A stretch of DNA of 64,000 bases from Tubulanus polymorphus. Its lineage: Eukaryota; Nemertea; Palaeonemertea; Tubulaniformes; Tubulanidae. Shown one piece after another: positions 12,001 to 15,000 of this stretch. The stretch spans positions 25,332,153 to 25,396,152 of the forward strand of contig NC_134028.1 of NCBI RefSeq assembly GCF_964204645.1. The letters are read 5' to 3'. The notes under the pieces were generated by a model. That model did no database searches and was not told the DNA's origin. It saw nothing but the letters and a program-made list of their open reading frames with translations. The position numbers and the translations under genes are program-made. The number at the start of each line of letters is the position of its first letter. Position 1 is the stretch's first letter.

Positions 12001-15000
12001 ACGCCATCTGGTGGTATAGCTAGCTAGTATGGCTTAAGTAAGCCACGCCATCTGGCGGCCTTGAAAGAAATTTATCTTACTGTTAGCCACGCAATCTGGT
12101 GGCTTTAAGAGAAGTAGGTCCTACTAATAGCAACGCCATCAGCTTACTAGAATATCCTACTGTGAAGGACGCCATCTGGTGGAATAGTTGGTGGCATCGG
12201 CCGGGATTGACACAAGCTTTCGTTTGTTATCTAATAGGATATGTATCATTTTAGGCTTTCAGAGTGTTTGCGAGTATATATGATATTGTGTAATTTTCAG
12301 GTATGAACATATTTGTGGCATTTTTCGTGCTGTTGCTTCTTTTAGCAGACACGACCCCGCCGGCAGCCAGGAAAATCCCGTTGATAGGTAGGGGACCAGC
12401 CGGCCAACATAAACAAATTCTTCGACCCAGTGTACCCATCTATCTATCTCTCCTGGAAATCACTCCGTGGCATGTTTTACCACTGTAGCTTCCGTGATCT
12501 GTACGTGACTTCCGGAGAGGTCGCATACAGTCGCGCCATCTATATCTGACCTATATTTATATTATTATATGTATCTGAACTGAGACGACGGACGTTGTTT
12601 TTATACATTTCAGGAATGAATATTTTTGTGGCCTTCTTTTTGTTACTACTTTTGTTGGCAGATGTAACTCCGCCCGCTGCGAGTAACGTACCCCGTATAG
12701 GTAAAATCCGGCACTTTGCATGGCTCATATCGTCCTGCAATTTTTCAACAGTCTTATATATCATTAGATCGCACCCAACGTACATATACACATTTTCTAA
12801 AACGTGATCATTGGACGAACAATTTTGATCAATTTTTCTCAGCTACGATTGCAATTATTCCACCGACGCTTGCAAGGAATTTCGAGCCTTTACACGCTTG
12901 AAAACTAACAATGATTAATTCCACGTTTTGTGTTCATTTAAAAAACTAACCTTTTTCAAGACAAAACCCCCCATCAGAACACCACAGGAACCGAACAACA
13001 AATGTTAATCAGATCTTCATTCTATTATACAAATTACAAATTATCATGTACGGTAGTATCACCTTTCACAATTTCCTAAACAAACATTAATCCTAAAACA
13101 ACCCGGCCAAAATTCCTTGCTCGCTTATTTTCATCACATCGCTGTATAAAGAGCTTGCTTCGGGCAGCTGGCAAAGGTATAGACATCTCGAGGTTTAGAT
13201 ATAAGGGGCCGGATGCTGCCAACAAGATCGATGGTTATTTATGTGCAAATCTTTGCTTTTTTCAGTTTCACGATGTAAAAACTATGTATTCACGCAGCCA
13301 ATATACAGTGTAGTTCGATACGACACTAAATCATCACTATACCTTTGCCTACTTAACACGAGCCCCTGATTATTTCGGGGCTTTGTCGTCATTTCAAAAT
13401 TTTTCAATGTTGTTCCCTTTGTGATTTAAATTCTCGCATCTCAGTTGGTTAGACACATTGTTTGATAAATAGTAAAATGTAGTTCATCTCAGTCAAGCAT
13501 CAAAAACATAGCATAGATATTCGATTCATTGTGCGATGCATTGTACCAATTCCTGAAAATGAACCACCTTTCTGCTTTTATTTTCATGAATTGCTATTAA
13601 TATGATTTCTTGTAATAAATATGTTACCGCAAAATGTCTACGTATCTCATTTCAAATGAACGGTCGTCGGATGCAAGCACACTGTCAATTAGGAAGTAAA
13701 TGCCTGGAATAGGTCTGAACGCACGGACAGTTCAACAAAACAACCATCGATTTCCAATCACATTTTACACTGTTTTGATGAAATTGGCGAAAAGAAATCT
13801 TGTTGTTTTACGTGGGTTCACAGATAATTTCTAGCACTTTGAAACTTTGCCTTCAAACGGGACCAAAACATCGAAATGATCAAGGTTTTTAGGCAGGATC
13901 GTTAACGTGTTTGAAAAAAATCCGAAGAAATTTTACAAAATGCTGGGGATTTTCTGTGATACCATCCAATGCAATAAGGTATTTATCGATTTCTTATCAG
14001 TTAAACACCTATTAGGTATATATCCCCGTTATAAAAAGAGAAATGGCACTAAACCGACCGTGCATTTGAAATGAAATGTAAATTAGTTAGAGCTTGATCA
14101 GTTGATCCAATGAAATACGTCATCGCGTCCTTTCCCAGGACGATACACATTGATCTGTTTACATTGATCTGTTCGCACATAATCTCCCTTCATTTTGCGC
14201 ACACAATTTTTAGTGTAGTATTTCATTCTAATGTGGAGTGGTTGTTGTCATCAGTTTGTTTTAGTGATACCGCGTGACTCGTAGAAGCACGTGACGTCAC
14301 AATGAGTTGTAGAACTTCGTGGCTGCGAATGAGACGTAAGAATCGGAAATGAGCTCATCACGTATGACGCGATTCACCTGAGGCCGGTTATATAGACTAG
14401 CCAGTTAACTGCCATTTTGCCCGGTTTTAAGTTAATACTGGTCTATATAACTGGCCCGGAAGACGGTCAGTATTCGAGCAATTACAACATAAATACTGAC
14501 CGCCAGAATGTAATGATAAACTAAAGTTCGTAATCTTTAAAATTCTATCCGTCCGCTTTCAGCTCTCTTACTAAATGCACGTGTGATTTCACTTTGAATT
14601 TAATATTATATTTATTAAAATTCAATCATATCAAATCATCATCCTGGGACCAGTTTCATTATTTCTCAGTTAGAACTTGACTCCAGATGTCAAAGCGTTG
14701 GAAGTGAACTGATTTGAATCGGCGATGGATTTGATTCAGTAAATCGCCCACTTAGAAAAGAAAATGTTTACAGTAGTCAGGAAATGTTTCCTTTAGTAAA
14801 TGCCTTATTTTCGACTCCTGGAGATGACTATCAATATAGTCAACTTTATCCCAATAGTCATCTTCAGTAGTATAACCGCAGACCAATCAGATTAGTTCCA
14901 TTGGTCTGCCGTACGAGAACCGGGTTCGAACCCCGGTGAGTGCCCGTAATTTGAACACTGTTTATTCCCCGATCGTTACGAAACACCAAAATTAGGAAAC

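Follow-up and report, generated by a model that had tools for sequence, protein, structure and literature searches.

The question raised by this locus is whether a single nAChR subunit gene of Tubulanus polymorphus, lying in a 64,000-nucleotide window, carries two alternative exons for the pore helix M2, and what the choice between them might change in the channel. The gene model lies on the forward strand and starts at the first exon identified (5903-6096), the signal-peptide exon being outside the model. This exon is bounded by AG and GT, is open, joins in frame and matches the N-terminal ligand-binding domain (Pfam Neur_chan_LBD). It is followed by an exon for the loop A region (9467-9576), placed by the in-frame spliced model, and by one that runs from the Cys loop to loop C (YYPCC) and on through M1 and the Pro-Ala motif (ESPAK) to position 3' of M2 (10307-10761). 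The candidate alternatives at 12301-12387 (exon A) and 12614-12700 (exon B) are each supported by splice bounds, genome search, substitution analysis and Pfam, and are separated by an intron of 226 nucleotides (12388-12613). A single downstream exon serves both and encodes M3 and the start of the intracellular loop (15685-15803), while the last coding exon, defined by the end of the frame, the spliced model and Pfam, contains the rest of that loop, M4 and the stop codon (16376-16849). When spliced in silico with either A or B the model yields a single open frame, 478 residues long, that runs from the earliest identified exon to the stop, and both isoforms match PF02931 (ligand-binding domain) and PF02932 (transmembrane domain), with scores for the transmembrane family of 138.7 bits for isoform A and 129.6 bits for isoform B. 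Simple repeats are found near the gene, of CAG type and TA as well as a GA/CT type that reads as RERERE or SLSLSL, at about 265-400, 9210-9335 and 21000-21200 of the window.

The subunit has the Cys-loop spacing C-x13-C, the vicinal cysteines of an alpha-type nAChR subunit (YYPCC, of the form YxCC) and both the ligand-binding and the four-helix transmembrane domain, and its nearest solved structures in the PDB are alpha7 chains. Immediately before M2, ESPAK aligns with DSGEK of human alpha7, placing Pro-Ala at -2' and -1'. For comparison 67 loci were examined, in a genome with 83 transmembrane-domain matches, yielding 22 other non-redundant M2 pieces above 15 bits; 21 of these have GEK before M2 and one has GDR. 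According to the passages available from PMC4055736, Pro-Ala before M2 is the mark of acetylcholine-gated chloride channels, the chloride-type receptors of Schistosoma and Lymnaea have it in place of the M1-M2 glutamate, as is the case here, and the replacement has been reported to convert the selectivity of a vertebrate nAChR. The same passages give YxCC as present also in Schistosoma SmACC-1, and state that SmACC-1 has 9 exons with alternative M2 exons going unmentioned there. Judged by its motifs the gene would thus encode an alpha-type subunit of the Pro-Ala class, for which anion selectivity is predicted.

Other subunit-like loci in the genome bear some resemblance to this gene. An exon on the minus strand (G000:C2:30213327-30213605, L052) has Pro-Ser before M2 (NPENPSKITLG), and its coding sequence is apparently split near the same point as that of the window gene. 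No M2 exon to follow it was found in 8,279 bases around; truncation of L052 could explain this, as could an M2 exon at a greater distance. A cluster of loci at G000:C4:21.87-21.88 Mb (L056-L059) is 50-54% identical to the loop C region of the window gene. Two of them, L056 and L057, are nearly identical in loop C, with an open frame that ends before M1, possibly at an exon boundary, and from their sequence look like soluble acetylcholine-binding proteins (AChBP).

Exons A and B are each 87 nucleotides long, are entered and left in phase 1, and are bounded by attttcag/GT and ATAG/gtaggg (A) and by atttcag/GA and ATAG/gtaaaa (B). They are identical at 57 of 87 nucleotides and 23 of 29 residues (79%). 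As tandem homologous exons of equal length and phase, each with its own splice dinucleotides, they have the form of a mutually exclusive exon cluster. The sequence-only reading had given the lengths, the spacing, the phases and the number of common residues, and these proved exact to the base. Alignment to human alpha7, with the prime numbering of M2 positions, shows that both exons encode M2 from 4' onwards together with the whole M2-M3 loop, up to 32'. The residues differ at 13' (V in A, L in B), 21' (T/V), 27' (R/S), 28' (K/N), 29' (I/V) and 31' (L/R), with the proline at 30' retained in both, so that the same alignment bears out the differences reported earlier at 13', 21' and in the loop (RKIPLI and SNVPRI). 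The replacements are concentrated in the loop, with 5 in the 12 codons of 21'-32' compared to 1 in the 17 codons of 4'-20' (one-sided Fisher p 0.03). Read by eye against the 22 paralogous M2 pieces, 13' is valine in 19, as in exon A, and 31' is leucine, isoleucine or valine in all 22 and never charged, whereas exon B has arginine; at 29' it is exon B that keeps the commoner valine and exon A that has isoleucine. Since exon B departs from the usual residue at both 13' and 31', it looks to be the more derived copy.

In a search of the 267.8-Mb genome with exon A as the query only seven matches were returned: exon A itself, exon B (E 7e-9) and five at E 0.07 or worse with identities of 37-47%, the first of these having an E of 0.07 and 40% identity. 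The M1-bearing exon has one place at 100% in the whole genome, the next match being 55% identical, and the M3 exon likewise has one place at 100%, with 39% identity for the next by E-value. With no close second copy of either flanking exon, both M2 exons must share the same M1 and M3 exons. That the pair could instead reflect an artefact of assembly or haplotype, or two adjacent genes, we regard as extremely improbable: nothing in support of it was found, the single places of the flanking exons speak against it, and differences at 30 of 87 bases are far above those between alleles.

These 30 differences are distributed as 21 at third, 7 at first and 2 at second codon positions, with 16 codons differing synonymously and 6 by replacement, giving a saturated pS of 0.95 and a pN of 0.14. 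Silent sites have thus been saturated while the amino acids were held, which indicates that the duplication is old and that constraint probably acts on both copies. An unlikely alternative is that just one exon functions, the other being a decaying duplicate that is skipped. The higher frequency of replacements in the loop than in the helix and the unusual arginine at 31' of exon B would be consistent with this, although in both copies the splice dinucleotides are canonical and the frame is open, and the protein sequence has been kept. Neutral drift was simulated in 10,000 runs starting from either copy, counting runs with at most 6 replacements and no stop. Treating all 30 changes as neutral gave no fitting run, which makes it unlikely that one copy has decayed wholesale. 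With 15 neutral changes, half of the total, 2.0-2.1% of runs fitted, and with 10, a third of the total, 37-38% did; over only 29 codons the test is weak against partial drift, and partial relaxation of one copy is possible. That both exons might be included together in some transcripts, producing a subunit in which the M2 helix occurs twice, or one that acts as a dominant negative, appears very unlikely. Including A alone, B alone, both or neither leaves the frame open in all four cases, and in the Pfam comparison of M1-M3 fragments the one with both exons scores 80.5 bits, above the 77.9 bits of B alone. It is, however, matched as two stretches, while A (86.6 bits), B and neither (49.6 bits) are each matched as one, and a double M2 would be expected to disrupt the topology by adding a membrane helix and inverting everything downstream. 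A passage in PMC1919356 also puts the proportion of tandem duplicated exons that are mutually exclusive at 99.4%.

Mutually exclusive use of A and B is the most likely arrangement as judged from the DNA. The reading frame and nonsense-mediated decay are ruled out as its enforcers by the four open combinations, so that the choice would have to be made by control of splicing, and mis-spliced products with both exons or neither would escape decay. Of what had been proposed from the sequence, alternative exons for M2 are well supported by the anatomy and constraint described above; the choice of one or the other follows from the expected topology, and is not imposed by the frame. Both donors, gtaggg and gtaaaa, depart from the usual consensus GTAAGT. 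The 226 nucleotides between the exons look too long for simple steric hindrance. With the frame also not enforcing the choice, exclusivity would most likely depend on a protein splicing regulator or on an RNA structure that escaped detection here. Ungapped complementarity in four region pairs gave nothing convincing by way of competing RNA structures, the observed values being equalled or exceeded in 121, 183, 13 and 42 of 200 dinucleotide shuffles. One of the 18 inverted-repeat pairs listed covers the acceptor of exon B (11729-11758 with 12598-12627, 70% complementary). In insects, as far as the relevant passages go, all the exon 8 alternatives of Tribolium alpha6 are transcribed (PMC2064938), a precedent for the use of both exons. 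In the silkworm exon 8c was not recovered in any cDNA (PMC1919356), which suggests that a minor alternative might hardly be used.

A repeat array ends 113 bases before exon A. It consists of four 37-nucleotide copies with a CGCCATCTGGTGG-like core at 11983-12187 of the window, 62-84% identical to the reference copy and with spacings of 44, 44 and 80. The core CGCCATCTNNTGG, which resembles the CTCF site, has four exact matches in the window compared to 0.03 expected, occurring also at 16277-16289 and 38980-38992, and 1,515 in the genome compared to 27 for the reversed control.

The nearest known parallel is insect alpha6, for example Dalpha6 of Drosophila, in which tandem alternative exons also encode part of M2. 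Insect alpha6 is an alpha7-type, cation-type subunit, in contrast to the Pro-Ala, anion-type subunit of the window. Of the 22 other M2 pieces surveyed in this genome, 21 have the end of the M1-M2 linker together with M2 in a single open frame. Only an alpha7-like gene with GEK (G000:C5:6.05 Mb) departs from this pattern. Its M2 exon, exon 8, is 87 nucleotides long, has phase 1-1 and shares its first and last codon positions with A and B. In the passages available, the insect alternatives 8a, 8b and 8c are described as covering part of TM2 (PMC1919356, PMC2064938, PMC6393475), and insect alpha6 as similar to vertebrate alpha7 both in its sequence and in the structure of its gene (PMC6393475). 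By way of the alpha7-like exon 8, these boundaries suggest that A and B occupy the same ancestral exon slot as the insect exon 8 alternatives.

The slot in common with the alpha7-like gene, together with the likeness of alpha6 to alpha7, would also fit an inheritance of the pair from the same ancient protostome duplication that gave 8a and 8b, to which we give a slim chance. The window pair is not located in the alpha6/alpha7 orthologue: the alpha7-like gene is a separate locus, and no second exon 8 was found there in the 9,979 bases examined, reaching its M3 exon. Exons A and B share GMNIFVAFF, which is absent from every one of the 22 further M2 pieces in the loci examined. Identity between exon A and the other M2 matches in the genome does not exceed 47%, against 79% between A and B. 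Since this resemblance far surpasses that of A to the remaining M2 matches, and the pair lies in a Pro-Ala subunit, the two exons probably arose by a duplication independent of that in insect alpha6. The sequence-only reading had raised convergence, which on these grounds is likely, with the qualification that apparently the same ancestral slot has been reused. No relatives were confirmed in viral contigs.

Alternative exons are known elsewhere among Cys-loop receptors, examples being RDL exons 3 and 6, GluCl exon 3, alpha4 exon 4 and alpha6 exon 3. Those of RDL exon 6 alter the ligand-binding domain. Such passages of the literature as bear on the point place the alternatives of RDL exon 3, GluCl exon 3 and alpha4 exon 4, where they are placed, in the ligand-binding domain (PMC2064938) and those of alpha6 exon 3 likewise (PMC6393475), unlike the window pair, which lies in the pore; the insect alpha4 and alpha6 alternatives are attributed to tandem exon duplication. 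The window gene has two copies compared to three in most of the insects covered by the passage in PMC1919356, and whereas exon 8c of Tribolium is described as replacing a conserved glutamate of M2 (PMC2064938), the charge changes of the window pair lie in the M2-M3 loop. Among the matches listed from the open-access literature, none was noticed that describes alternative M2 exons for a chloride-type or lophotrochozoan nAChR. The alpha7-like gene itself contains tandem copies of exon 7, encoding loop C (YECC) and M1, at G000:C5:6055767-6055961 and 6056726-6056920. Both are 195 nucleotides long, open and in the same frame, and 764 nucleotides separate them; 34 of 64 residues are identical between them, as are 113 of 192 bases, with a pS of 0.79 and a pN of 0.28. 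Lying immediately upstream of the single exon 8, they look like another pair of alternative exons.

The best explanation for the window gene, in which we have good confidence, is that the M2 exon of a Pro-Ala nAChR gene was tandemly duplicated long ago and that its copies are spliced as alternatives between common M1 and M3 exons, altering gating. The two resulting subunits would be alike in binding site and selectivity motif, and would differ at 13', 21' and positions 27', 28', 29' and 31' of the coupling loop. The corresponding loop of the muscle receptor (alpha Ser269 to Leu273) couples agonist binding to the gate. As the M2-M3 loop links the gate with the domain that binds the agonist, the expected change would be in gating, desensitisation or coupling, leaving ligand and ion selectivity unaffected. 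We infer that both exons are used, that their use is exclusive and that the gating of the products differs. This would be a known kind of splicing, M2-exon alternatives, in a different receptor class and probably of independent origin. Beyond what had been read from the sequence earlier, the analysis adds the anion-type Pro-Ala motif in the pore and the exon slot in common with the alpha7-like gene.

On a broader view, which we consider about evenly balanced, an inhibitory chloride-type receptor gene would splice between two coupling modules, reusing an ancestral exon independently of insect alpha6, and, taken with the duplicated exon 7 of the alpha7-like gene, the nAChR gating exons of this lineage would repeatedly have become cassettes. 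The isoforms would amount to a natural minimal swap of six residues, four of them at 27'-31' of the coupling loop, in a receptor that is otherwise identical, and thus to a ready test of the role of this loop in the gating of an anion-type nAChR. The pair would also make it possible to test whether evolution has drawn repeatedly on one exon slot in two receptor classes.
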